Part shown: piece by piece, positions 15,766-51,056 of the stretch
Layout: each line of letters begins with the position of its first letter
Position numbering within the stretch: position 1 is the first letter of the stretch
Source of the DNA: Bacteroidaceae bacterium
Lineage (GTDB): Bacteria > Bacteroidota > Bacteroidia > Bacteroidales > Bacteroidaceae
NCBI GenBank assembly: GCA_016280855.1
Contig: JAEEHP010000073.1
Location: 1 to 64,000 of the forward strand
Direction: 5' to 3'
Length of the DNA: 64,000 nucleotides
Notes under the pieces: generated by a model
Database searches by the model: none
Told to the model about the DNA's origin: nothing
What the model saw: only the letters and a program-made list of their open reading frames with translations
Made by a program: the position numbers and the translations under genes

Positions 15766-15791
15766 AGTTGATTGAATAATAATAATATATA

Positions 15792-17857: not shown

Positions 17858-17968
17858 AAGAGTGAAAAGTGATAGAGTTAGAAGTGAAAAATAAAAGTAT
17901 CTTTTAGAGATTAAAGATGAGAGATTAAAGATAAATATAACCTATTATTAACCAACACTTAAACGCTT
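17858..17968 (+). repeat. Intergenic purine-rich repeat tract
   Basis: Holds GAGATTAAAGATGAGAGATT-type repeats related to those inside the 9798 and 11500 genes. A near-match -7 box (TATCTTTT, 17898-17905) is inside the tract. No gene seen. Confidence 0.55.
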
Positions 17969-20501: not shown

Positions 20502-20535
20502 AAGAGGCTGTGTCGCACCAACGACACAGCCTCTT
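20502..20535 (+). terminator. Strong intrinsic terminator
   Basis: Perfect 14-bp stem AAGAGGCTGTGTCG / CGACACAGCCTCTT with loop CACCAA, 31 bp after the DUF4859-like gene. Confidence 0.85.
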
Positions 20536-20585
20536 GTCTATAGAACAACTAATCGTGATAGTCTATAGAACAGCTAATTGTGATT
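20536..20585 (+). repeat. 25-bp tandem direct repeat
   Basis: Two adjacent 25-bp copies beginning GTCTATAGAACA, differing at about three positions, placed immediately after the terminator. Either a regulatory array or a scar of slippage or insertion. Confidence 0.75.
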
Positions 20586-21105: not shown

Positions 21106-21113
21106 TATCTTTG
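21106..21113 (+). promoter_or_regulatory. -7 element TATCTTTG for the sensor/regulator gene
   Basis: Exact TAnnTTTG match followed by GCACACGA. Transcription would start near 21119-21121, right at the tandem repeats of the 5' UTR. Confidence 0.65.
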
Positions 21114-21220: not shown

Positions 21221-23068
21221 ATGCGTTCATCCGCTCTTTTGTCCTATCCTATAGCGATAGTCATTGCCATGTTCGTCGTTGCTGGCTGTCAGACGAATGG
21301 CAGGCCGAATCATCAAGCGTCCGGTGCCGACACAATCTACACCGAGGCGGCAGCTATGAGCATCCATCGCACCGAGCCCGAACGGGCGTTGGTGATGATC
21401 GACTCAGCGCTGATCGTCGGTAACATCACTTGGCAACGCGCAGAATACCTGAAGGCGGTGACGCAATACGGCGGGCTGCACAACCTGCCGCTGTCGCGAC
21501 AGACGTGTCTGGACATGATCAAACGCGACGAGGAGTTACGCAAGAGCGACAAGGATGCGCGCACCGACTCCGTGACGTTGGAACGCACATACCTCCTGCT
21601 GACAAGCATCGAATACACGGCCGCCAACCACCCCGCCATCATCCGCTACGCGACCGAAGCCTCGCGCCTCGCCCATGCGCTGGACATGCCCGACGAGGTG
21701 GGCAAGATGGAAGCTTTCATCGCTCGTGCCATGGCCCAGACGGGGCGTACGGACGAAGGCATTGAACGTCTGCGCAAGACACTCGCCGACCTTCGCGAGC
21801 TGAACACCTTCGGCGGTGTCGTTTCTTACCACGACGCTTCGAAGAAACTGCTGCACATCCTCATCGACCACGGCCGTTTCAGCGAGATGGAACAGGTGTG
21901 CCACGACGTGCTCGATCGCCTCGGCGAGCTTGAGGCGCACCCCGACCGCTTCGGCGACATGGTTGAAGGCTTTAATCCCGCCGAGTACATCGACTTCGCC
22001 CGCGGGCAGATGTTAGCGTTCCTCACCACGGCCTATGCGCGTCAGGTGACCGAGCACAAGGACGACCCCACTCTCCGTGCTAAGTATCTGCGTCAGGCCC
22101 TCGACACAGAGGAGCAGGTGTTTACTACGTCATGGAGCCGTGGCATCGACTGCGACAAGATGCTCTCGGCAGCGTACCACCACCTGGGTCAGTTTGACCG
22201 CTTCGAGCAGGCTATGCAGCGCTTCGAGAACACGTACCCCGACACCATCAACCCCAACTATCTCATCTGCCTCGAGCAGCGCAGCGAAGCCTGCAAGATG
22301 CAGGGTCGTCTGGCGGAATCGCTGAGCTACCGCGAGCGCGCCTCCGTTGTCCGCGACAGTCTGGACCAACGCAATCAGCGCGACCAGCTCGCCGAACTGG
22401 CCACGGTGTATCACTTGCAGGAGGAGCGTCTGGCTCGACAGCAGGCCGAATCCGATGCGCGCATCTTCCGCCTGCTGACGGCGGCCATCGCCTGCGGCCT
22501 CGTCGCCGCCATCGCCTTTGCCATTTACTTCTTCTACAAGCGCCGCGAAATTATAAAGAAGAATCGCGTGCTCGCGCGCGAGATTACGAAGGGATTAGAC
22601 AACACCCCGCTTCCCCACCCCATCGAGGCCGTGGTGCCCCGTGATGTTGCTGTTTCCCCGTCTATGCATGATCCCACTCCCTCCTCAGCTGTGGGGACAG
22701 GTGACACGCCCGCAGCGTCAGCCTACAGTACCCTCTATCAACAGCTGCGCAACACCATTCTTCGCGAGCAGCTGTATCTCGACCCCCGTCTTGACCGTCA
22801 GACGTTAGTGGACCGTTTCGGCGTGTCGAAGGATCGCATCGGTGCGGCGTTTGCCAAAGGCAGTCCTTACAAGTCACTCATCGACTTCCTCACCGATTGC
22901 CGCCTGCCTTACGCTGCCAAGCTTCTGGCTTCACGTCCCGACCTCTCCATCGCTGACGTCGCTCGCATGAGCGGTTTCCCCAGCGCCGACACATTCGGAA
23001 GAAATTTCAAGCAAAAATATGCGCTCACCCCATCGCAATTCCGCGAATCAGGCGAAAGCGTCCGTTAA
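21221..23068 (+). CDS. Membrane-anchored TPR-type sensor with AraC-family DNA-binding domain
   Basis: A 615-aa one-component regulator. The N-terminus MRSSALLSYPIAIVIAMFVVAGCQTN has a signal/lipobox (VAGC). Residues about 40-410 are helical with TPR-like repeats (LRQALDTEEQVF, LGQFDRFEQAMQRFENTYP). One transmembrane helix lies near aa 416-440 (TAAIACGLVAAIAFAIYFFYKRR), followed by a linker. The AraC-type double helix-turn-helix is at about aa 534-612 (LDRQTLVDRFGVSKDRIGAAF, LSIADVARMSGFPSADTFGRNFK). Topology is periplasmic sensing and cytoplasmic DNA binding. Genes of this design in Bacteroidales sit next to the surface loci they control, so it probably regulates the giant-protein operon 90 bp downstream. 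Confidence 0.85.
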   Translation: MRSSALLSYPIAIVIAMFVVAGCQTNGRPNHQASGADTIYTEAAAMSIHRTEPERALVMIDSALIVGNITWQRAEYLKAVTQYGGLHNLPLSRQTCLDMIKRDEELRKSDKDARTDSVTLERTYLLLTSIEYTAANHPAIIRYATEASRLAHALDMPDEVGKMEAFIARAMAQTGRTDEGIERLRKTLADLRELNTFGGVVSYHDASKKLLHILIDHGRFSEMEQVCHDVLDRLGELEAHPDRFGDMVEGFNPAEYIDFARGQMLAFLTTAYARQVTEHKDDPTLRAKYLRQALDTEEQVFTTSWSRGIDCDKMLSAAYHHLGQFDRFEQAMQRFENTYPDTINPNYLICLEQRSEACKMQGRLAESLSYRERASVVRDSLDQRNQRDQLAELATVYHLQEERLARQQAESDARIFRLLTAAIACGLVAAIAFAIYFFYKRREIIKKNRVLAREITKGLDNTPLPHPIEAVVPRDVAVSPSMHDPTPSSAVGTGDTPAASAYSTLYQQLRNTILREQLYLDPRLDRQTLVDRFGVSKDRIGAAFAKGSPYKSLIDFLTDCRLPYAAKLLASRPDLSIADVARMSGFPSADTFGRNFKQKYALTPSQFRESGESVR

Positions 23069-23103
23069 TTCGTCTGAGATCATACGCGAAATCGTCCGCG
23101 CTC

Positions 23104-23134
23104 TTGCACGGACGGGTGTAAGACGCTATCTTTG
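23104..23134 (+). promoter_or_regulatory. Promoter upstream of the giant-protein operon
   Basis: TTG at 23104-23106 and TATCTTTG at 23127-23134 with 20-bp spacing, a good Bacteroidales -33/-7 pair. It precedes the 64-aa small membrane gene and then the giant genes. Short inverted TCCGCG/CGGACG-like segments nearby might bind the upstream regulator. Confidence 0.7.
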
Positions 23135-23157
23135 CAGCGTCTCCATTCTCCGAGCGT

Positions 23158-23352
23158 ATGACCGAAGCATCCTCCTTCTACATTCTCATCCTCATCATTG
23201 CGGCACTCGTCGTCATCGTCGCAGCGCTCTTAGGGTGTGTCCTTTACAACCAGCACGAACTGCGCCGGAAGAACGAGGTCATCATCCGTGAGATCCGCGA
23301 GAACGTCCAGCTGCGCGACGAGCTGCGCCACCATCTTCAGCAAACCTCATAA
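23158..23352 (+). CDS. Small single-helix membrane protein with coiled-coil tail
   Basis: 64 aa: an N-terminal transmembrane helix (FYILILIIAALVVIVAALLGCVLY) followed by a charged coiled coil (HELRRKNEVIIREIRENVQLRDELRHHL). The layout echoes the membrane/juxtamembrane part of the neighbouring sensor (YKRREIIKKNRVLAREI). It has a good promoter 24 bp upstream. The last codons and the TAA stop lie in the first units of the AACCTCAT repeat. A real gene is likely because of promoter and composition; function unknown, and association with the sensor is speculation. Confidence 0.6.
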   Translation: MTEASSFYILILIIAALVVIVAALLGCVLYNQHELRRKNEVIIREIRENVQLRDELRHHLQQTS

Positions 23353-23398
23353 CCTCATAACCTCAAAACCTCATAACCTCATAACCTCAAAACCTCAA
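23343..23398 (+). repeat. (AACCTCAT/A)7 octanucleotide tandem repeat
   Basis: Seven consecutive 8-bp units (AACCTCAT or AACCTCAA). The array covers the stop codon of the 64-aa gene and ends 44 bp upstream of the first giant gene. No CRISPR-like spacers. Confidence 0.9.
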
Positions 23399-23442
23399 AA
23401 CTATATTCAACCCTTTTCCTTTAACCTAAATTTTTTCGCGTT

Positions 23443-26400
23443 ATGAAAACAAAACATCAACATTTCTCGCCTCCTGCCAATGCAGGATTTGAGCGATGGT
23501 TGCGCCATGGCAGGCATCCGATGCCCCGGCGCACGTCAAATGTGTGGACCAGACTGGTTCTGGTATTTCTCATGCTCTTCTCGGCCTTGCCTGTGTTGCG
23601 GGCTCAATACATCACGGACCTCAAAGTTATGGGCAGTAGCTCTGAATCAGGTATAACTAGCCTGAAAGATGCGGCCAAGAATCAGAAATGGACCGTCGTT
23701 GAGAAGGACCTGAATGACAATGCTGGCGGCTGGTATATTTACCTGGCTTATAAGACGACTGATAATGCAAATCCGGAGACAGAGTACATCACGGACATCG
23801 TCGCCAGGACAACTAATGTGAACAGCTTCACGTTGAACGGCAGATCATATTATAAGGTGACTGCTGAAGGAAGTAATTTCAACGGTGACCTGAACAAAGA
23901 AGCCGGCGGCGCTTATATCTACCTTTATTACACGAAAGGGCGCGCAAACTTGGCTGGCCATTATGATTCGAAGCGTGTACTCGAGAAGATTGAATCATCT
24001 AACAACGACGGCAGCCAATCGAGTGGTACATCGAACTACGGCCCCGTGTGTTGGTATGATGCCTACAGCAACGCCCCGTGCGATGTCAACAAGGGTTGCG
24101 GCAAAGGTTCCGACTACATCTACCTCAGAATGTATTTTAAGGAGCAGACGTTGTCCATCAAGAAAGATCCGAAGGCTATAAGCGGCCTCGTATATAATGG
24201 AAGCGCACAGAAGTTGGTAACTGCCCCTGCTAGTGGCAACTACGGAACAATGTATTACAAGGTGGGTAACGGTAGTTATAAAACAGCGTTACCGGAGGCT
24301 ACTGATGTACAGAAAGAGTACACGGTGACATATTACCTCAAAGCCGGTTCTTATGCCAATAATAGTCCCGCAAAATCGTTGAAAGTGAGAATTGCTCCGC
24401 CTACAGTGAAATCTGCGGGCCTCGACGGTGACTTTGACCAGGAGAAGAGGCAGGTGGTATTGACCTGGAGCGCAGCTGACGGTTTGTATTACTACAAGAA
24501 TTACAGATGGTATGTCTATCGCGGCAACACGAAGCTAGGCGAAGTGCATCCGGACTCTACACGCACGTGGATCGACACACAATATACGGTGGATAATCCT
24601 AAAGAGACGTATCACGTGTATTATGTGTCCAAGGACTGGGAACAAGAAGAGCTTAAAGATGACTGTAAGGCTTCTGTGGATGTGAGTACAGTGCGTACGG
24701 TGCCTGTGAATAACCTAAAAGCTGTAACTGATGATACCAAACTGACGCTGACGTGGTCATCAGATGGTTACCCAGCTGGTTGGGGCCACAAGTTCAAGAT
24801 CTATGTGGACAAGGAGACAGAGCCAATCATAACCATCACTCCTACGGGTTCTGATCATACATCGTTCACATGGGAGCACCGCTACACGGATGCACATGCC
24901 GACCGTAAGAACGGCACTACGGGGTCAGGCAAAAGCACCGTCTATTGGACCGAGGAGCAGGGCTTAGGTGCCTGCAGCCCCCACAGCTATCGTGTAGAGG
25001 GCGTCATCGAGAACAAGACGTTGAATTCGGCTTCTCAGGAAAACAAGGCCATCGGTGCAGCCACAAGTTTCTATTCCTTCGAAGCCTCGAAGGGCGCTTA
25101 TGCTGGTTCGGTGAAACTCTCGTGGCACATCGACAATCAAGGTTCAACTGCGTCTAAAACATACATTATTGCTCGCCGTACGACAGGGAAAGAGAGTGAG
25201 GCGTGGACAACGCTGGATCGCATCAACAGCACCGACGAGTACCTGCTTTATACCGACGAGACCGCTTTGCCAGGCATTTATTACGACTATAAAGTGACAG
25301 CTGTTGACAAATGTGGCAACGGAGAGCAAATTTATACGACCGCAACAGACATCGGTTTCTCACAGGCCACCGGCACAGTGAGCGGACGTGTAACATATGG
25401 CGCTTCCGGCAGCGCTGTAGATAGTGTTGACGTGATTATGACCAAAGCCAGTGTGTCGGGCGATGATGCGAAACAATATCAATCGTTGCGCATTAATGGT
25501 TCCAACGCTGTCGCTGTATGGAAGTATCCCAATGCCAACTACCCCAAGGAGATGTTCCAGACCGCGGACTTCTCCATGCAGATGTGGATCAACCTCGATG
25601 AGTTTCCCGAGGCATGGCTGATACGCTTGAGGGGAACTAACGTCGGAGCCATAGGTATATCGAAAAACAGCTACCCAATGTTCTGCTGTGGAACAAGTCC
25701 TCAATATAATTTTACGACACTTAGCTTGAAGAAGGGCGAGTATAATCACTTGACCATGACCCGAAAGGGGAATGTGGTGACCTTCTACCTCGTGGAACCC
25801 AATCCCGACGGACGTCCCATTGTACATAAGGAAACAAAGACCATCCACGCCATTTCGGATCTAACGGTCAACCCCGTGTTCCAGATGGGTTACTTCAATG
25901 GCTATATCGATGAGTTCCGCATTTGGACGAAGTGCCTGAGCGAGGAAGAGATCGTGGGTAACTTCGACCGCATGCTTGTGGGCAACGAGAAGGATTTGTT
26001 GTGCTATTGGACTTTCGACGAGGGCTTGAATAACAAGTTCTTCGACTACTCGCGCGAGGGTACGGTGTATAACGGTCACCACGGCACAGCGACAAACACA
26101 AAATCATCAGAGACGGTTCCCTCCGCCCTGGGTTTGAAAGCGACGACGGATACCGACGGTAACTACATCATAGCGGGCGTCCCATTCAGCGGCGAGGGTA
26201 CAAACTACAACATCCAGCCGATGAAGAACGCCCACGACTTCTCACCTCAAAAGCAAAGCCGTTACATCAGCGCCTCTTCGCTCGTTCAGAACAGCGTAGA
26301 TTTCACCGACGTGAGTTCGTTCGAAGTGTCGGGTCAGGTGCTGTATGAGGGCACGACGATACCTGTTGACAGTGTGATGATCTATGTGGACGGTCGCGCC

Positions 26401-29400
26401 GTCTCCCGCAACGGCGAGGCTGTGATGACTGATGAACAAGGTAAGTTCATCGTCGATGTGCCCATTGGCAATCACTATCTCACAGCCGTCAGGGACGGCC
26501 ACACGTTTGTTGAAGATGGTCGCATTCCTGCAGACCCCTCCGGCTTGAACTCTGAAACGATGCCTTTCACGAGCCCTCTGTCGGGTCTGAAGTTCACTGA
26601 CAATACGTTGGTGCCCATTGTGGGGCGCGTGGTCGGCGGTGCCATCGAGGGTGCAAAGCCGTTGGGCTTCGGTCTGAGCGAGAATAATATCGGTAAGGCC
26701 ATCATTACGTTGGAAATACCAGACCTTACTTATATGATTAACGCGCACGAGGAGTTTGCCGATAACGCTCACTTGGTGAGCAATGGTTACTTCCCGACAA
26801 AGACGAACACCCCGCTGCCACATCCTGAAGGTATGCCGAACGCAGGCGATGCTTATCGTACGGGCGGCGATTATGAGAATGATGCGAAGCAGATCGTGAT
26901 CACGACCGACGCTGTGACGGGTGAGTTCGGTGCACTGGTGCCCCCGTTGGACTACAAGGTGGTGTCGGTGCAGATGGTGAATACCACTGGTCAGAGTGCG
27001 TATGTGTTTAAAGCCGATGAGTTGCCGCGCATCAATGCAAGTGATGCCACGAACGTGATGCAGGACAGTACGTTGACAGACAAGGGCGAAAAGATCTTCT
27101 TCGACTATGTGGCCAAGTTCGTCCAGGCGAAGCACACAGAGCCGGTTCTGTCCGTGACGCAGGGCAATCTGCCGGAGGGCGTGTATGGTAAGCCAACAGC
27201 CTCCTATGTGAATCCGCTCACGCAGAAGGAAACGGAGGTGGCTGTTTATACGCTGAACAACAACCAGGTGACGTATAATTTCGGTTATCCCATTTTCGGC
27301 GAGTTAGGCACATACACGTTCAACCTTGAAGGTTATGAGATGTACACCAACTACGATAAAGACGCCACAGATCCCAAGCGCGAATCGAAGGTGCCGCTGA
27401 GAGATGTTGTCGTCACCATCAGCAATGCGTTGAGCTCGTCTCAGGAGGTGCAGGGCGTCGATGACCCAGAACATGCAGGTGAGGTGCTGAATTTGAAGCC
27501 CAACCAGCTACAGCTCGACTCTCTGGGTAAGGCTAAGTATCAGTGGAAGGCTGGTTTCCCCAACATCCAGAGTCCCTATACGCGAACATTAAATATGACA
27601 TACAACAACGGTGCTGGTGAGTACAAATGGAAGGGCACGACAGGCGATGGTATGGCGGGCATCATCTTTGGCGACCTGCCCTCTGGCACGAACTTCACTA
27701 CAGATGGTCCGTCGGACGTGGAGATGGTTCTTCACGACCCGTATGGTGACTCTTCGTTCGCTACCTGGGAGACAGGTAAGGTGACCGTAGAATCTACGGA
27801 TACAGTGGCCACACAGACACAGGACAACAGCTTATTGTCAACCCTTCATCTTGGTCCTGATTTCTCAATGGGTTCTGGCGGCTGGGGTTTCATATTCGAT
27901 ACCGAACTTGATACTACCATCGATCCTGCGCTTGGCTTCGACCGTGTGATGCAACACGACACCATCACTACAAATACCACAACGATCGAGGTTACACGCG
28001 CCATCAGCACAAGTAGCGATCCGGAATTTGTAGGTGCTGATGCAGACCTATATATAGGAAAGAGCAGTAACCTGTTGTTCGGTAAGGCCCGAGGCGTCGG
28101 CCTAAAGGAAAATGACCAGGGCGTACCGGAAGTGGCGGTGAGCGACGTGATCACCATAGGTAAGAAGTTCAAGACGAACTTCGTTTACACACAGTATCAA
28201 ATCGAAAATGTGATCGTTCCCAACCTGAAAACTATTCGAAACGGTTTGCTGGTTTGGGTCGAGGACGTGGATTCGACGCTGAATGATACATCGGAGACCA
28301 TGTACGTAACGGCACTGCATGAGGACGATCCGAACTTCGGTGAGCCCGGAACCTACAGAGCCATTGCTCCGAAAACCGGTGGAAAGATTGGTGTAGATAT
28401 GGTTGGCTTCTACAACGACCAAATCCTGAACTGGTACGCCGCCATCGAGCAGAACGAGAAGTATAAGGTTGATCTGTTCAAGGACTCCAGTGCTGAAAAG
28501 AAAAATTTATCGTTTGGCGGCGGTTCCGAGAACACGGAAACATCAACAACGTCTAAGACCAGGTCAAAGACTACAACCTATACCCACAACTGGACGGTCA
28601 TTGCATCGTTGGATGTAGGCTTCACTTATAATGGAGTAGGCTTTAATCTTGAGACTGCCAACAACACGACGTTTGAAGATGCTGAAAGCGAAACCAACGA
28701 GACCACCACAACTGCGACCTTCAGCTACACGCTGGCAGATAGCGGTGCCGATGACTCGTTCACGATGGATATTTACCCGGCTTCTGGCAACCACGGTCCT
28801 GTATTCCGCACCTTGGGCGGCCAGTCGTCATGCCCCTATGAGGGTCAGGTGTTGACAAAGTACTACAAAGCTGGTAAGGAAGAGCTGTCGGCTGCCACAT
28901 GGCAGATTGAAGATCCCGAGTTGACGTGCGACAATCGTCTGCTGACGGGTATCCCGACGGGCGGCAAGGCTCAGTTCGAGCTGAAGCTGAAGAACAACTC
29001 AATTACGAAGACCGACTGCTACTTCAACCTTGTTCCCGTTGACGGTGCTAATCCTAAGGGTGCATTGCTGAGCCTGCCCACAGGTCCTATCGGCAACGGT
29101 CGTTCAGTATTTGTGCCCGCTGGTGAGGCAGTGACAATGATCCTGACCCTCGAGCAGGGCAACCTCGCCACGACGAAGTACGACGACATCCAGCTGTCGC
29201 TGCAGAGTGCATGTCAGGACGATATCTGCAGCACGATCAGCCTGAGTGCTGAATTCGTGCCTGCCAGCACACCAGTGATCATGGCTATCGACAAGTCCGT
29301 GATGAACATCGGCAACGTCAGCGATGGTCTGAATATCCGTGTGACGGGCTTCAACCGTTACTTCGCCGGCTTGGAGCGTGTTGATCTGCAATACATGGCT

Positions 29401-32913: not shown

Positions 32914-32917
32914 AAAA

Positions 32918-32993
32918 GACTCACCCCCAACCCTGCCTCTCCCCCAACCCCTCCCCCGAAAGGGAGGGGAGAAGGGGAGAGAAGAAGGGGGCT
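32918..32993. repeat. GC-rich hairpin element between the giant genes
   Basis: C-rich then G-rich sequence with a clear stem (CCCCTCCC / GGGAGGGG, loop CCGAAA). Related in character to the other palindromic elements. It may dampen read-through or stabilise mRNA between the two giant genes. Confidence 0.7.
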
Positions 32994-33007
32994 AAAAATT
33001 TAATATT

Positions 33008-36000
33008 ATGAAAAGGAAAGACTATTTATCAAAACAATGGTGGCGGGTCACACTACTATTGCTGGCCTGCCTCATCGGAGGCAGCAGCCCGACGTGGGCC
33101 ATCGCATTCGTCAATGAGGGCTACACAGCCATCACCAGTACACCTGCCAATGACAACGGTACTTACAAACAACCGTACTTCGAAATGAAGATGGTGTACT
33201 ACGACAATACGAATGACGCCCTATGTTACTGGCAAAGTGCGCCGGAGATCTATGTGGACGGTGTACTGGTGTGCTATGGCACCGAAATAGGCAATTTCGG
33301 AGCTAACGGTGGAAAAAAAGCATCCGAAGCAGCTAACAGTGGAGTCCTCTGGTGGGGCAATATTCACGACAAGACGGTGGACGGTGTGACCTATCGTGTG
33401 CGCTTCCACAGTCCTTTCGTCTCGCAGACTTGGTCTGGCCACCAGAAATATTCGTGCTATATGCGCGTTTATATCAGCAGTATGGAGTCGAACTCGTATC
33501 ATGAGGTACGCTTCAAGGGTCAATGGATGTATGCAGGGGGTCTCACTAACGTCAACGCTGCTTATGCGTTCAGGGCTCCCACGATGTGGGCCGACAACGT
33601 TGCACTGACAGCAGACATGACCGACTACCAGACACTGTCTCTGAGCGGTAACTTGAACTACAACTACGGTCCAACGTTAGTGGGCTTGAAGCCCGGCGGT
33701 GAAGGTAACGCACCGACGGTGGCGTCGACCTACAGACCGCACCGATATGTGGAGACATCGAATCTCGTTTCAGCGAAGCGATATGAATGGCACACGAGCA
33801 CGTTCAGTGGAGTGTCGTATGCATATACCCGCCAGAACTTGAGCCATAAGAACGGTTCGATAGCTGCAGTGGAATACTCGCTCCCTGTGGAGGACAACGG
33901 TTTCACCACCAATTTCTACAAATGGTACGAAGTGGGCGTCCCTGGATTCGCACTGCCTATAAACCTTGAAGTGAAAAGCAAGGATCCGTGGACAAAGAAG
34001 ATCGAGCTGACATGGGATGTTGACGTCGACTGGATGGTCGTAAACAACAATCGGCGTAGCAAAGAGGGTAAATGGGTGATTTATCGCGACAATAATGAGA
34101 TAGGCTCCAAGGCCTACGACAAGCCCACGATGACTTTCACAGATACGTCTGTGCCCGATTACGAAGTGAACCACACCTACAAGGTTGCTTTCGTGCCCAA
34201 CAATATACCGGCAGGACATAAGAACGACGATCTGGCAACCTCCCTGGGAACCTCGCTCGAACGTAACTGGTCTTTGGAGGCTCTTCCGGCGACGCTTGTT
34301 GATGACGATGCCCATGTGAAAGTGTCGTGGAAACACAGTGGTATAGAAGATGCAACGGGGTCTAACACCTACGCGCTGACGATCCACCGTTCTGATGACG
34401 ACGGTCAGACATTTAGCGGAGCTATTTACTCTTCAACGATCTCAAGCAAAGGTACGCTGGAAGGCTCGTATATTGACAACAGTGATGACCTTCGCTCGAA
34501 CCATACCTACGTTTATCAGATAAGGATCTCCTTGCTTGATAAGGAATACACGGCGGATACGCCACCCATCACGCTCGGAGGCTCACAGCTCAGGGAGTTC
34601 ACTGCATCCCGCGGCACATACAGCAATGTGGTCAAGCTCGCATGGACAGTGAAGCAGGTGGGCGGCGAAGCGACCTCGTTTGTGGTGGCACGCCGTCCGT
34701 TAGGCACTGAAGGTAACGACAAGGGGTGGCAGACTATCCACACGATCTCGGGCACGAACACATCATACAGCTACGAGGACAATACGGCTTTACTGGGCAC
34801 TTACAACGAATACCGGGTGGCCATTGTAGATAAGACTAACTCTTCGAAAATCTTTGGATCAATGACCACGGACGGTTTCGCCTACTCCACCGGTGTCGTC
34901 AGCGGACGCATCAAGTACGGCACCGGCACCGCCGTGGAGGGCGTGAAGGTTAAGCTGAAACAACAGAGCGAGAGCGGCGATTTGCTGACTTCGGGCATGC
35001 GCTCGCTGAAACTTACCGGAAGCCGTGCCGGTTTGATTCTTAAGACCGACCCCGAGACCATCCAACAGCTCTTCGGCGGCGACTTCTCGGTGCAGATGTA
35101 TGTGAATCCGAGTTTGGCCGAGATGGACGGCAGCAAGAGCAGCTACAACCTGCTGCACGCCATCCACATCTTCTACATGTCGCTCGCCAAGAACGGCAAC
35201 GCCTATAAACTCGGAGCATGGGTTGATGGTACTACGGAAACTAGCAACCTCACCATTCCCGCCGACAAGTGGAGCCAAGTGACCTTGGTGCACAACCACG
35301 ACGCGAAGACCACCATGCTCTATGTCGCCGCCGCCGACACGCTGCAGCGCGCGCTCGTCCGCAGCGGCAAGCAAATCAACTGGGCCAAGAACGGGAATAA
35401 CGACCCCATGGCGGTGGACTCCCTCGACATCTTCAGCATAGCCGGATTGGGTCAGAACGGCAACAACAACTTCCGCGGCTACGTCGATGAGTTCCGCTTC
35501 TTCACCAAGGCGCTGAGCGAGAAGGAGATCCTGCGCAACTATAACCACCCGTTGGCGGGCAACGAGGATGGTCTTGCTATCTACTATCCCTTCGACGAGG
35601 GTCTGACGAAGCAGACGATCGCCTACGACTACTCGAAGACAAACGGTGTGGCTAACGGACACCATGCACAAACCTACATTCCAGCCTATTCAGAAGCCGA
35701 GAAGCTCCCGAGCGAAGAGCAGCTGTGCATGATGAACTACACCGACTCTTTGGGCAACTACACCATTCGGGGTATACACTTCGAGGGCGAGGGAACGCCT
35801 TACAGCATCATTCCCGAATACAACATCCACGAGTTCTCGCCGTCGGCACAGTCGCGCTTCATCAGCGCATCGTCGCTGGTACACAGTGGTGTCGATTTTG
35901 AGGATGTCAGCTCGTTCCCCGTGAGCGGACGGGTGTTCTATGCAGGCACAGACTATCCTGTGGAAGGGGTCAACTTCTACGTCGATGGTACTATCTGTGC

Positions 36001-39000
36001 CAAGAACGGCGAGCTGATTGCCACCAACGCCGAAGGCGAGTTCACCATCAGCGTACCCATCGGCAATCACTTCATCGAGGCGAGAAAGAACGGCCACGTG
36101 TTTGTGAACAACGGCCGCTTCCCCGAAGACCCGAACAACACGGGTACGTTGCATAATTTTGACGGCGAACTCTACTTGGAATACCGCGACACGACGTTGG
36201 TGAACTTCACCGGGCGTGTGGTCGGTGGCGATATTGAGGGCGAAAAGCCCATCGGCTTCGCCAGAAGCACGAACAATATCGGCAGAAGCACCTTGGTGCT
36301 GCTACCGCCCAATAGCGACAAGTACCGCCTCAATGTTGTCAGGGAGGATAATGGGGGTAGCTTCAGCTACGTGAGCAATCCGGATACTGTGCCCATTCCT
36401 TCTGCCAGAAACATCATCGAGAGTACCTCGTGGCGCGGCGCGGGTGCAGACAACAGCAACAAGCTGTTCATCCGGACTGATGCCGCAACGGGCGAGTTCT
36501 CCGCTATGGTGCCTCCGCTATCCTACACCATTCAGAGCATAAAAGTTGATGCCACCGGAAAGGATCTCATCGAGAATTCCATCACTCTTGACCTCACTCA
36601 GCCTCTGTTGGAGAACAAGGACTCTCTTGAAAGCGACGACGGCAGCTTCGACTATTACACTTACCACACGATGCTCCGCCAGACCTACCACAGCACACCT
36701 ACCTTCACCGTGAAGCAGGACAAGAGGGACGATGGCGCTTATGGTATCAACGAATACACCATTAATGATATCAACGGCGAGCTGAAGGTGGAGGATATCA
36801 GCACGGGCGGCAATTACAAGTTTGGCTATCCTGTGTTCGTAAGTATGGATTCCTATATCTTCGACCTTGAGGGCTTTGAGAAGTATGAGAACAAGGATTC
36901 AGGCGTGACTGTCGAGTCGAAGGTTCCTCTTGCCGGCACCGTAGTGACCATTGCCAATGCCCTGTCCTCAGAGCAAGCGGTCTATGGTGAAAACAACGAA
37001 GCGGGAGCCGAACCGGGAAGCACCGATGGTGTGAAAGACTTCCAACTGGAGCTGGACGATGAAGGTAAGGCAAAATATGTGTGGAAGGCCGGTCTGCCCA
37101 ACATTTCCGACCCCTACACCCGTACCATCAACATCTATTACACGATAGGCAATGTAGACTACGACTGGACGGGCAATCCTTTGAATGGGATTGTACTGGG
37201 AACCTTGCCAACGGGCAACAACTTCGTCACAGCCGGTACCGACCAGCTCGACATGATTCTCCGTGATCCTCCCGGCTCCAACTCCAGCGCAGAGTGGTCG
37301 AAGGGTAGCGTTTGGTCGAGATCGGAATCGAAAGGCGGAACCTGGTCGAGTGAGACTACAGCTAAGACCACCACGCATTTCGGCACGGATACTCAAGTCG
37401 CAATAGGTGCAATTGCCCTCTACAAAATGGAAGATCTTGAGGTTAAAGCAGACTTGGATGTTGGTGTCAAGGTGACCTGTGAGGGTGAGGATGCAAAAAC
37501 TTGGAGTCGTGAAGTGACGACAACCAAGACGATCAGCACAAGCGATTCACCCGACTATGTGGGTGCTGACGGCGACATCTTCATCGGCTCGTCCACCAAC
37601 CTCATCTTCGGTATGGCACGTGGCCTTGATATCGTTCGCGATGAGAATGATCCCACCAATGCCATTCTCCATCTCGATGACGTCCTCACTGCTGGCCTGC
37701 AGTTTAATACACAATTCAGCTACACGCAGAGTTACATCGTGAACACGCTCATTCCCAATTTCAAAAAGTTGCGCAATGCGATGATTACCCCTGCTGTAAC
37801 GACAGCCGTCTATGACAGCTATGTGAATGACTCGAATCGTCCTGTCTATCTGTCCACACTGACGAGCGAAGACGAACGCTTCGGATCCAGCAATCATGAC
37901 AAAAAAGTTTGGAAAAATTTAGCAACTGCAGCCCCGTCTGAAATGGGTCCATCATATAAGATGATTGTTCCGCAAGGCTCTAACGAAGCCTACCAGGACA
38001 GTGTGGAATGGTACAACAGTCAGATCAAGGCTTGGGAAACCTATTTGGCATTTAACGAAATGCAAAAGCTTCAGGTATACCAATATCGCACTGAAGACAC
38101 CAAGAACTATTCTTTCGATGCCGGTACGACGGTAAACGAATCTGTCGAGACGAATACATCCAACGGTTCACACTATGATGTCACAACCACCGCTGTAGCC
38201 ATTGTCGGAACAAGGTTTGGCACCTCCTTCAATAAGTTAGGCGTAGAGTGGGAGATTGGCACAGAGACCGGCGGCGGCGAACATCATGAAATTGAGGAGT
38301 CAAATTCTGAGACCACTTCGTTCAGCTTTACCTTAGCCGATGACGGAGTGGACGACGCCCTTTCGGTTGATGTCTATGATGGTTGGGGGTTCAGCCCCAT
38401 CTTCCGCACACGAGGTGGTCAGACCAGCGCACCCTACGAGGGCGAGGTGGTCACTAAGTACTACGAACCGGGCAGCATCATCATGGAAGGAACGATGCAG
38501 ATTGAGGTTCCGCATATTGCAGTGGACAATCCCGTCGTAAACAGTGTTCCCTCTGGTTCTGCCGCAGAATATACGCTACAGTTGTCCAACGCTTCTGAGA
38601 TTGGTGCCGACGTCGTTTATAGGCTCTTCGTCCTCGACGAGACGAACCCCAACGGCGCTCAACTCACCATCGACGGCAAGGTGCTTACCGAGTCGGGACG
38701 CCTGATTAAGGTGCCTGCCAACCAGACACTGACGAAGACGCTGCAACTGCGCCAGACCAACACCAGCGTACTTGACTACGAGAAACTGACCCTCGTGTTC
38801 GCTTCCGACTCGGAACCCGACGAGATCTTCAGCGCGGTAGATATCACGGCACACTTCATTCCGTCGTCATCACCCGTAACGCTTGCACTCAGCAATACAA
38901 TAATGAACACGCAGACGGGCGACGATCTGACGCTGACGTTCAAAGACTTCGACCGCAACTACCGAGGTCTGAAAGCCTTCCGCCTGCAGTACAAGAAACA

Positions 39001-42000
39001 GGGTTCTACCGATTGGACGATGTTCCATGAGTATCTGCTTGAGGAGACTCAGAATATGAGTTCGAACAGCGAGTTACTGCCCAAGACGGGCGGCAGCGTG
39101 AGCTACGACCTGCCGATGGCCTCCTTCTCCGACGGCGACTACCTCTTCCGTGTCGTATCTGTGAGCGAATATGGTTCAGGCGAGATCACACGTGAGAGCA
39201 ACGAGGTAGCCCTCGTGAAGGATATGGAGCGCCCGCGCCCGTTAGGTCAACCCGAACCCACTGACGGCATCTTCGACATCGGCGACGAGGTGAGCCTTAA
39301 CTTCAACGAGGCCTTCCTGAAGGGAGAACTGACCAAGATCAAGAACTTCAGCATCACCGGCGTACTCAACGGCGCTGAGCTCGCTCATGAGACAGCACTC
39401 TCTATGCAAGGAACTGATGTTGCAGCACAGACAGAGGCCAGCATCAACCTGAATGAGAAGGACTTCAGTATCGACACATGGGTGAACATCACCGGTGAAG
39501 GCACACTGCTGAGCCATGGACAAGCCGACGACAAACTGACCGTGGGTACCAATGCCGACGGCAAGCTGGTGATTGAGATAGCAGGTCAAACCTATACTTC
39601 AACCAACGCCGTTCCTAAGAACGAATGGGCGTTCCTGACGATGAACGTTACCGCCGCCGGTAAGCTGAATGCCAACGTGGCTACCGCCAACGAGACCATC
39701 ACGCTCTTCAACAGCCAAGATGTGGTTGCTTACAAGGGCAACGGTCCGATTGCTGTCGGTAGCGGCTCCACCGGAGCGATGCACGAGTTGCTGCTCTGGG
39801 ACGAGGCTCACGATATGACCACGGCTCTGCTGAACCGTTCGAAGTCGAAGAGCCCATCGACACGCCACCTCATCGGCTATTGGAAGATGGACGAGGGCGA
39901 AGGCAAGAGCATCCGCGACTACGCCCGCAACCGTCACATGACAATGCCCAACGAGACATGGTACCTGAACAACGAGAATAAGGCTGTTGCCCTTGACGGA
40001 CAGAGCTATCTGAGCATGTTTACCGGCAGTTTGCCTTACACCACTGCCGATGACTACGCCATCGAGTTCTGGATGCGCGGTGACAAGCAGACGGGCGAGG
40101 TTCAGCTGCTGCAGGCCGGTAAGGTTGGCCTGTGGCTCGACAGCGAAGGCGTGCTTCAGCTGACTAGCACTGTTAACGATACTCCCGTGACACTGGCTTC
40201 CACCAGCGGCGATCTGACCGACAACGCATGGCACCATGTGGCACTGAACGTGCTGCGTCAGGGAGCAGCTGCCATCTACGTCGATGGTGAGCGCAAGCTG
40301 ACGACCAGTGCCTCCAACGTGGGCAATATCGCTACTGACCATATCATCGTGGGCGCAAAGCGCACAGCCACTTATCCCAATGGCATCTTGACGTACACCT
40401 ACGACAGCGGCTTCAAGGGCGAAGTGGACGAGATCCGCGTATGGGATGCTACGCTGAATGCCAACTTCCTGAATGCGAACCGCAAGGTACGCCTGACAGG
40501 AATTGAGCCCGGGCTCGTAGCCTACTATCCCTTCGAGACGCAGGGTCTTAATGCGTATAGCGTACTCGTCACTACCGGCACCGACGAGGACTTCACTGGT
40601 ACCGGCATAAATGCAGAACTCATGACCATCGACGATCAAGTCTCAGCAATCAATTATGTTGATGAAGCTCCTGCACTGCGCAAGAAGCCCGTGGAGACCA
40701 ATGTCAGCTTCAACTTCACGGCGAGCAACGAGAAGATCGTCATCGACATCGATGAGGATCCCGCCGCCATTGAGGGTTGCACCTTAAACTTCATCGTACG
40801 CGAAGTGCGCGATGTTAACGGCAACTTCTCCATGCCTACCGTATGGTCGGCCTTTGTCAACCGCAAGCAGCTTGTCTGGAAGGATGACGTTGTCGCCATT
40901 GAGCAGCACGTGAACACGGGTAGTTCTGTGACGGCAACGCTCGTCAACAAGGGTGGCCAGCAGCAGATGTGGACGTTGAGCGGACTGCCTTCGTGGATCA
41001 CCGTTGCCAGTGACTATGGCACGACGAACCCGCTGGCCGAGAGCACCATCACGTTCAATGTCGCTCCCGATGCACCTCTTGGACGACATGAAGTGACCGT
41101 CTATGCTTCGGACAACGACAATATCGACGTGCCGCTGACCATCAATGTTAAGGTGACTGGCGATGTGCCCGATTGGGCAGTGAACCCAGCCGACTACCAG
41201 GAGACGATGAATGTCATCGGAACGCTGAATATCCTCAATGTACGTTCACAGAACGAGGATGATATCATTGGCGTATTCATCAAAGACGAATGTCGCGGTG
41301 TAGCTCATCCGTCCTATGTCAAGCGCTATGATGGCTACTTCGTCACCATGGATATCTACGGCAACAGTGATGAAAGTCAAAATGAAACGCTAGAGTTCAA
41401 GGTCTTTGAAGCCTCCACGGGTGTTATCTATCCCGTTGTCAAGTCTTCGCAGGACGGTAGCGAGTTCGTCTTCAAATTCGTGTCCAACGACTTCCGTGGC
41501 ACATACAAGAACCCCGTTACCCTCAATGCCACGGACGAAATCGAGCAGGATATCGCTCTGGAAAAGGGCTGGAACTGGATTTCGCTGAGCGTGAAGCCCG
41601 ATGACATGGTGACATCAGTCGTGTTCGCCAAGGCAGCAGGACGCGTCAGTGAGGTGAAGTGCCTGTCGGATAATGATCAGTATGACAACGGAACATGGTT
41701 CGACATGGAAATGAACAATTCCGAGATGTACCTGACCAGTGCTACAGAATCCTTCACGCTGAATGTGACCGGTCACCGTGTGAAGCCCGAGAATGAGGTC
41801 ATTCCATTCAATAAAGGCTGGAACTGGATTGCCTACAATGGTCAGCGCGTCATCAGTCTGGCTGATGCCCTCGCAGAGATGGATCCGCAGGACGGTGACA
41901 TCATCAAGGGACAGAAGGGTGTGGCCTACTACGATGAGTACGAATGGATAGGCTCGCTGAAGACGCTCGTTCCTGGAAAGGGCTACAAGACGAATAACAC

Positions 42001-42553
42001 CGGCACGAACAACAAGTCGTTCCACTATCCCGCCTCTGCAGCAAGCAACTCCGGCGCCCGTCTGGCACCGCGTCGCGATGATTCTTCTATTGAGCCTTCC
42101 ATCTTTGTTCCCGTTGACTTCCACGCTTATGCAGAGAATATGACCGTCTGCGTACAGGTCGTCAAGGACAATGAGCCTGTTGAGGGCATTGAGGTCGGTA
42201 TCTTCGCCGGCAACGAGTGCCGCGAGGCCAGTGTGACCGACAATCGTGGTATGATTTACGTCACCGTGCCCGGCAACGAGCCCGTGAAGCTGACCTTCCA
42301 CGTGACCGATGGTGCTGATATCTATGAGGCCAGCGAAAGCGTGACCTACGAGACGGATGCCGTACTCGGTACACCGAAGTCACCGCTCACGGTCAACCTC
42401 GATAACGCTACCGGCATCAAGAGCATCAGCGATCTGACAAGCGAGTCCATGTATGACATCAGCGGACGCAAGGTTGCCGACAGCAGAAAGGAGAACCGTC
42501 AGCTGTCGAGAGGCGTGTACATCGTCAACGGACAAAAAGTTGTCGTAAAGTAA
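33008..42553 (+). CDS. Giant multidomain surface protein 2, paralogue of protein 1
   Basis: 3181 aa with signal MKRKDYLSKQWWRVTLLLLACLIGGSSPTWA. The domain order matches protein 1: LamG near aa 665-880 (FSVQMYVNPSL, GYVDEFRFFTKALSEKEI); a regulatory-like fold near 970-1040 (VSGRVFYAGTDYPVEGVNFY); the central STSDSPDYVGADGDIFIGSSTN region and GGQTSAPYEGEVVTKYY near 1805; LamG pair about 2135-2520 (LIGYWKMDEGEGKSIRDYARN); BACON-like; the FIKDECRGVAHPSYV terminal module; GWNWIS repeats; tail YDISGRKV...GVYIVNGQKVVVK. The C-terminal third is best conserved between the two. Only 94 bp separates it from protein 1 and 19 bp from the next gene. Probably outer-surface; substrate or partner unknown. 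Confidence 0.85.
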   Translation: MKRKDYLSKQWWRVTLLLLACLIGGSSPTWAIAFVNEGYTAITSTPANDNGTYKQPYFEMKMVYYDNTNDALCYWQSAPEIYVDGVLVCYGTEIGNFGANGGKKASEAANSGVLWWGNIHDKTVDGVTYRVRFHSPFVSQTWSGHQKYSCYMRVYISSMESNSYHEVRFKGQWMYAGGLTNVNAAYAFRAPTMWADNVALTADMTDYQTLSLSGNLNYNYGPTLVGLKPGGEGNAPTVASTYRPHRYVETSNLVSAKRYEWHTSTFSGVSYAYTRQNLSHKNGSIAAVEYSLPVEDNGFTTNFYKWYEVGVPGFALPINLEVKSKDPWTKKIELTWDVDVDWMVVNNNRRSKEGKWVIYRDNNEIGSKAYDKPTMTFTDTSVPDYEVNHTYKVAFVPNNIPAGHKNDDLATSLGTSLERNWSLEALPATLVDDDAHVKVSWKHSGIEDATGSNTYALTIHRSDDDGQTFSGAIYSSTISSKGTLEGSYIDNSDDLRSNHTYVYQIRISLLDKEYTADTPPITLGGSQLREFTASRGTYSNVVKLAWTVKQVGGEATSFVVARRPLGTEGNDKGWQTIHTISGTNTSYSYEDNTALLGTYNEYRVAIVDKTNSSKIFGSMTTDGFAYSTGVVSGRIKYGTGTAVEGVKVKLKQQSESGDLLTSGMRSLKLTGSRAGLILKTDPETIQQLFGGDFSVQMYVNPSLAEMDGSKSSYNLLHAIHIFYMSLAKNGNAYKLGAWVDGTTETSNLTIPADKWSQVTLVHNHDAKTTMLYVAAADTLQRALVRSGKQINWAKNGNNDPMAVDSLDIFSIAGLGQNGNNNFRGYVDEFRFFTKALSEKEILRNYNHPLAGNEDGLAIYYPFDEGLTKQTIAYDYSKTNGVANGHHAQTYIPAYSEAEKLPSEEQLCMMNYTDSLGNYTIRGIHFEGEGTPYSIIPEYNIHEFSPSAQSRFISASSLVHSGVDFEDVSSFPVSGRVFYAGTDYPVEGVNFYVDGTICAKNGELIATNAEGEFTISVPIGNHFIEARKNGHVFVNNGRFPEDPNNTGTLHNFDGELYLEYRDTTLVNFTGRVVGGDIEGEKPIGFARSTNNIGRSTLVLLPPNSDKYRLNVVREDNGGSFSYVSNPDTVPIPSARNIIESTSWRGAGADNSNKLFIRTDAATGEFSAMVPPLSYTIQSIKVDATGKDLIENSITLDLTQPLLENKDSLESDDGSFDYYTYHTMLRQTYHSTPTFTVKQDKRDDGAYGINEYTINDINGELKVEDISTGGNYKFGYPVFVSMDSYIFDLEGFEKYENKDSGVTVESKVPLAGTVVTIANALSSEQAVYGENNEAGAEPGSTDGVKDFQLELDDEGKAKYVWKAGLPNISDPYTRTINIYYTIGNVDYDWTGNPLNGIVLGTLPTGNNFVTAGTDQLDMILRDPPGSNSSAEWSKGSVWSRSESKGGTWSSETTAKTTTHFGTDTQVAIGAIALYKMEDLEVKADLDVGVKVTCEGEDAKTWSREVTTTKTISTSDSPDYVGADGDIFIGSSTNLIFGMARGLDIVRDENDPTNAILHLDDVLTAGLQFNTQFSYTQSYIVNTLIPNFKKLRNAMITPAVTTAVYDSYVNDSNRPVYLSTLTSEDERFGSSNHDKKVWKNLATAAPSEMGPSYKMIVPQGSNEAYQDSVEWYNSQIKAWETYLAFNEMQKLQVYQYRTEDTKNYSFDAGTTVNESVETNTSNGSHYDVTTTAVAIVGTRFGTSFNKLGVEWEIGTETGGGEHHEIEESNSETTSFSFTLADDGVDDALSVDVYDGWGFSPIFRTRGGQTSAPYEGEVVTKYYEPGSIIMEGTMQIEVPHIAVDNPVVNSVPSGSAAEYTLQLSNASEIGADVVYRLFVLDETNPNGAQLTIDGKVLTESGRLIKVPANQTLTKTLQLRQTNTSVLDYEKLTLVFASDSEPDEIFSAVDITAHFIPSSSPVTLALSNTIMNTQTGDDLTLTFKDFDRNYRGLKAFRLQYKKQGSTDWTMFHEYLLEETQNMSSNSELLPKTGGSVSYDLPMASFSDGDYLFRVVSVSEYGSGEITRESNEVALVKDMERPRPLGQPEPTDGIFDIGDEVSLNFNEAFLKGELTKIKNFSITGVLNGAELAHETALSMQGTDVAAQTEASINLNEKDFSIDTWVNITGEGTLLSHGQADDKLTVGTNADGKLVIEIAGQTYTSTNAVPKNEWAFLTMNVTAAGKLNANVATANETITLFNSQDVVAYKGNGPIAVGSGSTGAMHELLLWDEAHDMTTALLNRSKSKSPSTRHLIGYWKMDEGEGKSIRDYARNRHMTMPNETWYLNNENKAVALDGQSYLSMFTGSLPYTTADDYAIEFWMRGDKQTGEVQLLQAGKVGLWLDSEGVLQLTSTVNDTPVTLASTSGDLTDNAWHHVALNVLRQGAAAIYVDGERKLTTSASNVGNIATDHIIVGAKRTATYPNGILTYTYDSGFKGEVDEIRVWDATLNANFLNANRKVRLTGIEPGLVAYYPFETQGLNAYSVLVTTGTDEDFTGTGINAELMTIDDQVSAINYVDEAPALRKKPVETNVSFNFTASNEKIVIDIDEDPAAIEGCTLNFIVREVRDVNGNFSMPTVWSAFVNRKQLVWKDDVVAIEQHVNTGSSVTATLVNKGGQQQMWTLSGLPSWITVASDYGTTNPLAESTITFNVAPDAPLGRHEVTVYASDNDNIDVPLTINVKVTGDVPDWAVNPADYQETMNVIGTLNILNVRSQNEDDIIGVFIKDECRGVAHPSYVKRYDGYFVTMDIYGNSDESQNETLEFKVFEASTGVIYPVVKSSQDGSEFVFKFVSNDFRGTYKNPVTLNATDEIEQDIALEKGWNWISLSVKPDDMVTSVVFAKAAGRVSEVKCLSDNDQYDNGTWFDMEMNNSEMYLTSATESFTLNVTGHRVKPENEVIPFNKGWNWIAYNGQRVISLADALAEMDPQDGDIIKGQKGVAYYDEYEWIGSLKTLVPGKGYKTNNTGTNNKSFHYPASAASNSGARLAPRRDDSSIEPSIFVPVDFHAYAENMTVCVQVVKDNEPVEGIEVGIFAGNECREASVTDNRGMIYVTVPGNEPVKLTFHVTDGADIYEASESVTYETDAVLGTPKSPLTVNLDNATGIKSISDLTSESMYDISGRKVADSRKENRQLSRGVYIVNGQKVVVK

Positions 42554-42572
42554 CACTAAAATAAATAGCAAG

Positions 42573-43598
42573 ATGATGAATAATAGATTTTTCTCAGGAA
42601 TCTCATCCCCCCTCCCATTTATTGGGAGGGCTGGGGTGAGCCTCCTTCTTGCACTCTGTTGCAGTGCTGGCCTGTGGGCCCAGACGACTAACGACCCCTT
42701 CCCCACCGTCAACTACAACCGTTACCAGGATAACATGACCTTCTTTGGTCAAGTTCGATTGGACGGAGAAGTTCAGCCAGACGGAGGCATCGTTGCAGTT
42801 TATTGCGGCGATGAGATCCGCGGCAAAGGCGAAATCAAAAAATGGGGTAAACACGAGAAGTGCGCTAAGTTCAATATCAGCGGCGAGACGAAGGGCGATC
42901 CGCTTCACTTCAAGGTCTTCACTGGTGGTCGCGTCATCGAAGTGGATCAGCAAGAGACGTTCACCGCAAACACTAAGTTGGGAAGTGTCTCGGGCTACTA
43001 CTACATCGATCTTCCTGTGCCAGTGGTATCAACGTCAAGCAGCGAGGGCTGGAGCACCACGTGCCTGCCCTTCAACGCCGAGATTCCAGAGGGTGTGACG
43101 GTGTATGCCGCCACTGGCGTCGAAGACAGTCAGCTCAAAGTCGCGAAGTACGAAGGAAAGGTGCTTCCCGCCAACACCCCCGTGCTGGTCGAGAGCGCCG
43201 GAGGCAACAGCTTCGAATGGCTTGCGCGCATCTCCGCAGACGAGAAGCCCGACGTGAACATCTTCAAGGGAACCACCGAGAAGACCAATGTCGAGGCTGG
43301 AACGGTGTACACGCTCGGCCATGAGAGCAGCAGCGGTAAGATCGGCTTCTGGCGCTTCTCCGGGACAGCCGTTCCCGCCAACCGCGCCTACCTCAAGGTA
43401 GATGATGTTGGCGTGAAAGGGTTCACATGGATAGAAGACGACACTGACGGAGTCGGCCTCACCCCCGACCCCTCTCCCATGAGAGAGGGGAGTGCTGGCA
43501 CGGTGTATGACCTGAGCGGTCGCCGTGTAGCAGACAACTTGTCAACTCTCCCTCGCGGCATCTACGTGAAGAATGGACAGAAATTCGTTGTAAAATAA
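42573..43598 (+). CDS. Secreted 341-aa mini-homologue of the giant proteins' terminal module
   Basis: The signal peptide is interrupted by a repeat-derived segment (ISSPLPFIGRAGVS), then LLLALCCSAGLWAQ. Residues about 50-145 (GGIVAVYCGDEIRGKG... LHFKVFTGGRV) match the terminal module of both giant proteins (VAAFIGNECHGVA... LEFKVFEAATG). Residues about 155-290 (TTCLPFNAEIPEGVTVYAAT... LPANTPVLVE... IPANRAYL type) match the pre-tail module of the 1179-aa protein. A second repeat-derived peptide, LTPDPSPMREGS, precedes the sorting tail YDLSGRRV...GIYVKNGQKFVVK. It sits 19 bp after giant 2, so same operon. Function unknown. Confidence 0.8.
   Translation: MMNNRFFSGISSPLPFIGRAGVSLLLALCCSAGLWAQTTNDPFPTVNYNRYQDNMTFFGQVRLDGEVQPDGGIVAVYCGDEIRGKGEIKKWGKHEKCAKFNISGETKGDPLHFKVFTGGRVIEVDQQETFTANTKLGSVSGYYYIDLPVPVVSTSSSEGWSTTCLPFNAEIPEGVTVYAATGVEDSQLKVAKYEGKVLPANTPVLVESAGGNSFEWLARISADEKPDVNIFKGTTEKTNVEAGTVYTLGHESSSGKIGFWRFSGTAVPANRAYLKVDDVGVKGFTWIEDDTDGVGLTPDPSPMREGSAGTVYDLSGRRVADNLSTLPRGIYVKNGQKFVVK
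42608..42646. repeat. Palindromic repeat in the signal-peptide region
   Basis: CCCCTCCCATTTATTGGGAG followed by GGCTGGGGTGAGCC. Hairpin CTCCCA/TGGGAG. Read in frame as the peptide PLPFIGRAGVS ahead of the hydrophobic core. Confidence 0.75.
43459..43497. repeat. Palindromic repeat just before the sorting tail
   Basis: CCTCACCCCCGACCCCTCTC followed by a complementary GAGAGGGG arm. Read as LTPDPSPMREGS, a peptide typical of REP-like elements reported in many bacteria. It separates the body from the C-terminal tail. Confidence 0.8.
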
Positions 43599-43614
43599 CT
43601 AAAGACGAAGCGAT

Positions 43615-43788
43615 ATGAAAAAGATTTATATCCGACCGGCCATACAGATCGTTGGCATCAGTCTCACGTCTGCCCTACTTCTCCCCATCAGCGGCGGAGG
43701 TTCCACCGATGAAAGCCTCGTTTCCCGTCAGATCGACGAGGAGATTTGGAACTCTGAGGATTACTGGGATTCGCCCTTCGAACGGTAG
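43615..43788 (+). CDS. 57-aa conserved-type small peptide
   Basis: Too short for the ORF track. ATG at 43615, stop TAG at 43786-43788. The sequence starts MKKIYIRPAIQIVGI, has a moderately hydrophobic centre and an acidic, tryptophan-rich end (EEIWNSEDYWDSPFER). Such MKKxYxxPxxxxxxL...small peptides with acidic tails are common next to Prevotella surface genes. It starts 16 bp after the 341-aa gene and precedes a terminator, closing the operon. Function unknown. Confidence 0.65.
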   Translation: MKKIYIRPAIQIVGISLTSALLLPISGGGSTDESLVSRQIDEEIWNSEDYWDSPFER

Positions 43789-43815: not shown

Positions 43816-43849
43816 AAGAGGATGCACCCTATTGCGGGCGCATCCTCTT
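43816..43849. terminator. Bidirectional terminator between convergent units
   Basis: AAGAGGATGC / GCATCCTCTT 10-bp stem with a 14-nt loop, between the 57-aa gene (plus) and the end of susB (minus). T-rich sequence on the plus side. Confidence 0.8.
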
Positions 43850-43884: not shown

Positions 43885-48485
<4,601 letters not shown>

Positions 48486-48488
48486 GAT

Positions 48489-48575
48489 ATATTAAGTTGA
48501 AAGTTGAAAGTTGAGAGTTGAAAGTTGACAAGTTGACAAGTTGAAAGTTGAAAGTTGACAAGTTGACAAGTGATA
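48489..48575. repeat. GTTGAAA/GTTGACA heptamer satellite between MFS and malQ
   Basis: About eleven degenerate 7-bp units (GTTGAAA, GTTGAGA, GTTGACA). Same satellite as in susB and the PD40 lipoprotein. It fills most of the malQ leader. Confidence 0.85.
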
Positions 48576-48592
48576 TTTTAATTTTTCACTTT

Positions 48593-49900: not shown

Positions 49901-49932
49901 AGGTCGTTAAGTATTTATTTGTTTATTGTTTC

Positions 49933-50973: not shown

Positions 50974-50992
50974 AATCGGTAGGTTTTGCTTG

Positions 50993-51000
50993 CAAAATTA
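50993..51000 (-). promoter_or_regulatory. -7 element (TAATTTTG) of the lacI-type gene
   Basis: Minus-strand TAnnTTTG match 20 bp before the regulator start. A TTGACA (51025-51020) upstream could serve as -33, although its spacing of about 22 bp is slightly long. Confidence 0.5.
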
Positions 51001-51011
51001 GCTAAAAGACG

Positions 51012-51025: not shown

Positions 51026-51056
51026 TTTGTTAATTCGAAAAATGCAGTAAGTAATA

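Follow-up and report, generated by a model that had tools for sequence, protein, structure and literature searches.

A predicted membrane one-component switch, with an AraC-type sensor and a small transmembrane coil, before genes for giant LamG proteins in a Bacteroidaceae genome

Results

Genes at the locus

The window (the whole stretch of DNA analysed here, 64,000 nucleotides) is contig C111 of a draft Bacteroidaceae genome of 3.4 Mb that is 85% complete; MAGs assigned to Prevotella/Bacteroidaceae, most of them of ruminant origin, are its closest named relatives. Six forward-strand genes encode proteins of 615, 64, 3156, 3181, 341, and 57 amino acids: a sensor, a coil, two giants, a mini-module protein, and a short peptide. 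A preliminary description had placed these ORFs correctly and had also correctly measured the gaps of 94, 19, and 16 bp (giant 1–giant 2, giant 2–mini, and mini–peptide, respectively). The gaps between sensor and coil and between coil and giant 1 are 89 and 90 bp.

The sensor (21221–23068) has a lipobox-like N-terminus, a TPR-like periplasmic part, one transmembrane helix at about residues 415–435, and a cytoplasmic AraC-type helix-turn-helix domain. Its earlier assignment as a membrane AraC sensor is supported by this N-terminus and by a match to the Pfam profile HTH_18 (E = 2.2e-13). This genome carries the locus twice, and the sensor of the second copy (P0011, contig C141) matched TPR_12/TPR_10 and HTH_18, the latter with E = 1.5e-14. 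Pfam matches in these two proteins were confined to HTH and TPR domains, with no HisKA, HATPase, or receiver domain, and a hybrid two-component system was rejected because the sensor has neither kinase nor receiver. The coil (23158–23352) is a single-pass transmembrane protein with a charged coil.

Giant 1 (23443–32913) contains three LamG domains, a carboxypeptidase-regulatory-like region, a central region with VGADADLYIG and GGQSSCPYEG motifs, GWNW repeats, and a sorting-type tail. Giant 2 (33008–42553) has the same layout, and the two proteins align over almost their whole lengths (residues 312–3156 and 319–3181) at 40% identity. The shared architecture that had been described for them, including GGQ(S/T)S(C/A)PYEG in both, was thus borne out, with three Pfam LamG matches in each (E = 9e-42 and 5e-28; PF13385, 143 and 99 bits against a gathering cut-off of 27.6). 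By contrast, Pfam lent no support at E ≤ 0.05 to the BACON-like fold suggested earlier. The proposed sorting tails are clear in relatives (PF18962, E = 9.1e-10 in L113) and fall below the cut-off at this locus (TIGR04183, E = 0.021 for P0004) and in the second copy (E = 8.6e-4). The type IX secretion protein SprA/Sov scored far above the cut-off on three contigs of this genome and in 0 of 14 control genomes. Distant relatives of the giants, ~1,700–3,900 residues long, occur across Bacteroidota, and by sequence the giants fit into a family of LamG proteins of this size range, with type IX secretion tails, that spans the phylum. They are new members of a widespread, known protein type. The LamG domains suggest that the giants bind sugars or proteins; glycans, mucin, or another cell are the most likely targets, and a role in adhesion or glycan binding is proposed on this basis. 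We found no positive evidence for the self/non-self recognition that had also been raised.

The mini-module protein (42573–43598) has a module and tail in common with the giants. Its counterpart in the second copy (L021, 13475–14089) carries a type I dockerin at its C-terminus (E = 4e-15), a domain that the window protein lacks. The 57-residue peptide (43615–43788) is of an MKKxYIxPA type that also closes other giant operons (L021, 1120–1293; L026, 17715–17954), with several weak relatives elsewhere in the same genome. Downstream of the last gene, a 10-bp GC-rich hairpin (43816–43849, forward strand), which a terminator scan did not call, may mark the end of the transcript.

Upstream on the same strand (6696–20470) are genes for an M60 (enhancin/mucinase-like) peptidase, DUF6057, a GH127 β-L-arabinofuranosidase, DUF6055, and DUF4859, separated from the sensor by a hairpin near 20503–20536. 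Downstream (43885–54259) lie starch-type genes: GH97, GH77, and an MFS transporter on the reverse strand and a TonB receptor on the forward strand.

A predicted promoter with operator-like repeats upstream of the coil gene

A promoter is predicted on the forward strand at 23104–23134, with TTG as the -33 element (23104–23106), a 20-bp spacer, and TATCTTTG as the -7 element (23127–23134). This arrangement fits the Bacteroides sigma-ABfr consensus of TAnnTTTG at -7 and TTTG at -33 (PMC7366714). Another TATCTTTG element, upstream of the sensor gene (21106–21113, forward strand), has no TTG at the usual spacing; we predict that the sensor is transcribed from this promoter of its own. The preliminary description had proposed a single transcript from one good promoter. 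Two promoter-like sites were found instead, the better of them 3′ of the sensor, and inspection of the later intergenic gaps of the locus revealed no TAnnTTTG. A transcript of ~20 kb starting upstream of the sensor is less likely for these reasons. We predict two transcription units, one for the sensor alone and one of ~20.7 kb, driven by the promoter between sensor and coil, for the coil, giant 1, giant 2, the mini-module protein, and the 57-residue peptide.

Just upstream of this promoter, overlapping the sensor stop codon, lie two operator-like direct repeats with a period of 22 bp, AGCGTCCGTTAATTCGTC and ATCATACGCGAAATCGTC (23057–23096, forward strand). Taken alone these repeats are weak (12 of 18 positions match; shuffle p = 0.053), and their register is that of the strong repeats in related loci. 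Ten of the 16 coil loci, the window included, have a TTG element followed after 20 or 21 bp by TAnnTTTG upstream of the coil. At the other nine of these ten, direct repeats of 22 or 23 bp sit directly upstream of the TTG and match at 13–18 of 18 positions (shuffle p ≤ 0.003), with 18 in C141, 17 in L030, L031, C27, and G590, and 16 in G624a; the period is 22 bp except in one locus, where it is 23. At G624b, repeats and promoter of this kind lie farther from the coil. In four of the 16 loci there is no TAnnTTTG within 300 nt, and in another two the TTG spacing is absent. Searched across this genome, the full operator-promoter pattern occurred at only two sites, one upstream of the C27 coil and one upstream of the C141 coil; the reversed control gave none. 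The tandem repeats look like an AraC-type operator in class II layout.

The letters of the repeats vary with the recognition helix of the adjacent sensor. Where the second helix of the sensor is SAD (window, C141, L030, and G501), the repeats are CGTnAATTCGTCT-like; where it is SLN (L028 and L031), they are TCACYAATTCGTCT. This match is suggestive rather than proof, because the loci are few and the sensors share ancestry.

The coil resembles part of the sensor

The coil is the first gene 3′ of the predicted operator, and its product resembles the transmembrane and juxtamembrane segment of the sensor. When a coil profile was used to search 14,463 ORFs, coils ranked first and sensors made up most of the remainder. 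Scores of at least 6 bits were reached by 30 of 42 sensors, a pool that is partly redundant, versus 4 of 637 other transmembrane ORFs of at least 200 residues (Fisher p = 3e-38). The alignment with sensors covers the transmembrane helix and the KNxxLxREI segment that follows it; matches to single sensors in locus-by-locus searches were weak (E = 6.6e-8 to 5e-3). The similarity is short and shared transmembrane composition could explain part of it, yet other transmembrane ORFs do not show it. Moreover, a small transmembrane-coil ORF comes next after the sensor in 11 of 30 cases, compared to 8 of 724 control ORFs. The simplest reading of this resemblance, which suggests feedback, is that the coil acts as a free-standing piece of the sensor: it would pair with the full-length protein and tune its activity in one direction or the other.

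An alternative, which we consider unlikely, is that the coil is a small membrane protein in its own right, such as a secretion helper, whose likeness to the sensor arose by convergence alone. Its sequence is short, L026 has no coil, and giants in other genera lack one too. Among related loci, however, the coil goes with the sensor and not with a particular cargo, and a search of the full set of ORFs with its profile recovers sensors. At the position in L026 where a coil would be expected, between sensor and giant, there is an isolated AraC DNA-binding domain (6507–6848), by sequence another piece of a sensor.

Recurrence of the locus and of the sensor-coil pair

Neighbourhood comparison bore on the idea that the genes form a co-occurring set. 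The set does recur, in the second copy in the same genome and in several MAGs, but elsewhere its two halves come apart. On contig C141, a sensor (596 residues), a coil, a giant (3170 residues), and a mini-module protein follow one another in the same order as in the window. Another mini-module protein and a 57-residue-type peptide lie 5′ of this sensor, apparently the end of a further operon. The sensor-coil-giant order is also found in L028, L030, and L031, with several ruminant Prevotella MAGs among the carriers, and G501 has a single sensor ahead of three giants and two coil genes. The giant of L030 (7034–16329) is split into two overlapping frames, reflecting a frameshift or an assembly error in the MAG.

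Other genera have giants that are 50–55% identical without sensor or coil, and most relatives lack the sensor. Conversely, sensor-coil pairs precede lipoprotein or surface-protein operons unrelated to the giants in C27, G403, G474, G590, and G624. The C27 example (L111, 2415–5987) includes a lipoprotein in which a Peripla_BP domain is fused to a C13 (legumain-like) peptidase, and in G624 (L177, 6810–10309) two tandem sensors are followed by one coil gene and a lipoprotein operon. No relative was found in viral contigs. With giants and sensor-coil pairs occurring apart in other genomes, we rejected the six genes as one obligate system or apparatus. Because it stands upstream of such varied operons, the sensor-coil pair is, judged from these neighbourhoods, a portable regulatory cassette, and the giants are one of its cargoes.

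This distribution also bears on two other explanations. First, the locus might be an unusual PUL-like site of surface glycan capture, in which the giants bind glycans and the sensor detects breakdown products. The LamG fold and the flanking carbohydrate genes (GH127 and M60 upstream; GH97, GH77, and the TonB receptor downstream) agree with this idea, but those neighbours look like separate units, the operon contains no enzyme, and the same cassette stands before the C13-peptidase lipoprotein operon. In addition, no SusC/SusD pair was found among the six genes, in agreement with the earlier judgement that this is not a standard PUL, and a PUL was rejected for that reason. We regard glycan capture of this type as improbable, somewhat more so than an independent coil. 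Second, an ordinary surface-gene cluster could lie beside an unrelated regulator by chance, as the lack of a nearby sensor for most giants in other genera might suggest. The repetition of the linkage in several loci, two of them in one genome, together with a common operator-promoter, makes such a coincidence very improbable.

The central region of the giants

The central region, ~1000 residues, had no convincing match in Pfam or among PDB sequences, where a search with its alignment gave nothing below E = 0.36. Structure prediction, which had been proposed as a check, was too weak to place the fold. AlphaFold2 models built from shallow alignments (13 sequences from the window and related loci) had pLDDT values of 55 and 46, below usable confidence; for the unclassified core of the giant 2 region (37040–38599, forward strand), pLDDT was 46.5 and pTM 0.51. 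Fold searches with these models returned generic Ig-like or no significant matches, with none below E = 0.001 for the second. In L113–L119 and others, a VGxxGDVFIGxxxN motif is kept in this region phylum-wide, more widely than GGQTSCPYEG.

A pore-forming (MACPF-like) or contact-dependent effector domain in this region, with the operon acting against other cells, was also considered. The hints came from the pore-former-like strand order of a low-confidence model, in which two long-strand pairs are accompanied by variable loops rich in Ser/Thr and intervening helices, and from MACPF pores in a weak fold list. However, PF01823 was unmatched at E ≤ 10 in all 13 members, the second fold search gave no hit below E = 0.001, and both models were below usable confidence. 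A pore-forming core is not supported, and we consider this alternative the least credible of those raised here.

Discussion

A model for regulation of the operon

The locus is probably a dedicated membrane one-component switch for an operon of surface proteins that serve in adhesion or glycan binding. Starting from what can be read in the sequence (gene order, the conserved promoter and repeats, the coil-sensor resemblance, recurrence, and type IX secretion in the genome), we infer the following steps. The sensor would be made from its own promoter, with its TPR domain watching the periplasm and its AraC-type DNA-binding domain in the cytoplasm. Once activated, a sensor dimer would bind the tandem 22-bp half-sites immediately next to the -33 element of the coil promoter, and this binding would turn on the coil, both giants, the mini-module protein, and the 57-residue peptide. 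The giants and mini-module protein would leave the cell through the type IX secretion system and be displayed on the surface, where the LamG domains would most likely contact glycans, mucin, or another cell. As the first product of the operon, the coil would most likely pair with the sensor through the shared transmembrane and juxtamembrane helix and damp or tune it.

A more specific version of this model is held more tentatively, and we think it somewhat less likely than not. Here, the two genes would serve Bacteroidota as a portable switch. The membrane AraC sensor would turn on an operon, and the gene at its head would encode a detached copy of the sensor's transmembrane-juxtamembrane helix; by pairing with the sensor, this helix would shut down or set output, giving each surface operon its own feedback loop and a matched operator.

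The wiring suggested here (a sensor, an adjacent matched operator, a sensor-derived mini-protein, and surface cargo) is a testable rule for how gut and rumen Bacteroidota choose among large surface proteins. Because the operator can be read from sequence, regulons and sensor specificity could be predicted. The analysis also delineates a family of giant surface proteins, spread across Bacteroidota, with a conserved central region that has no assigned fold.

Comparison with known systems

In the open-licence literature, we found nothing on point about TPR-AraC membrane sensors or LamG/type IX giants in Prevotella, and the combination of a regulator with a mini-copy of itself seems not to have been described previously. 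Several known systems share parts of it.

AraC/XylS-family activators include AraC, which acts at araI1-I2, and XylS, which acts at Pm. The sensor resembles them in its C-terminal HTH_18 domain and in tandem half-sites of ~21–22 bp placed directly upstream of the promoter's upstream element, a class II layout. Such tandem operators abut the target promoter in relatives (13–18 of 18 matches, period 22–23 bp), whereas the window version is weak (12 of 18). Unlike these activators, the sensor appears to be held in the inner membrane with a TPR domain on the periplasmic side, and its first target gene would encode a small transmembrane companion.

With the hybrid two-component systems of Bacteroides PULs, which are carbohydrate sensors (PMC3404733), the sensor has in common a membrane-spanning chain that joins sensing and regulation, the phylum, and local control of surface genes, but it has no histidine kinase or receiver domain.

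The giants are like other LamG cargo of the type IX system with Por secretion tails in having a signal peptide, LamG and Big_5/Ig-like modules, and, in relatives, a C-terminal sorting tail. They differ in their unusual size and in a central region of ~1000 residues that matches no Pfam family, PDB sequence, or fold.

Finally, the TTG-20-TAnnTTTG sequence before the coil gene is like sigma-ABfr promoters (PMC7366714), but with tandem 22-bp repeats upstream that vary between paralogous loci. In sum, the sensor-coil-operator cassette would be a new form of one-component regulation, and the interest of the locus lies there rather than in the giants as a new apparatus.
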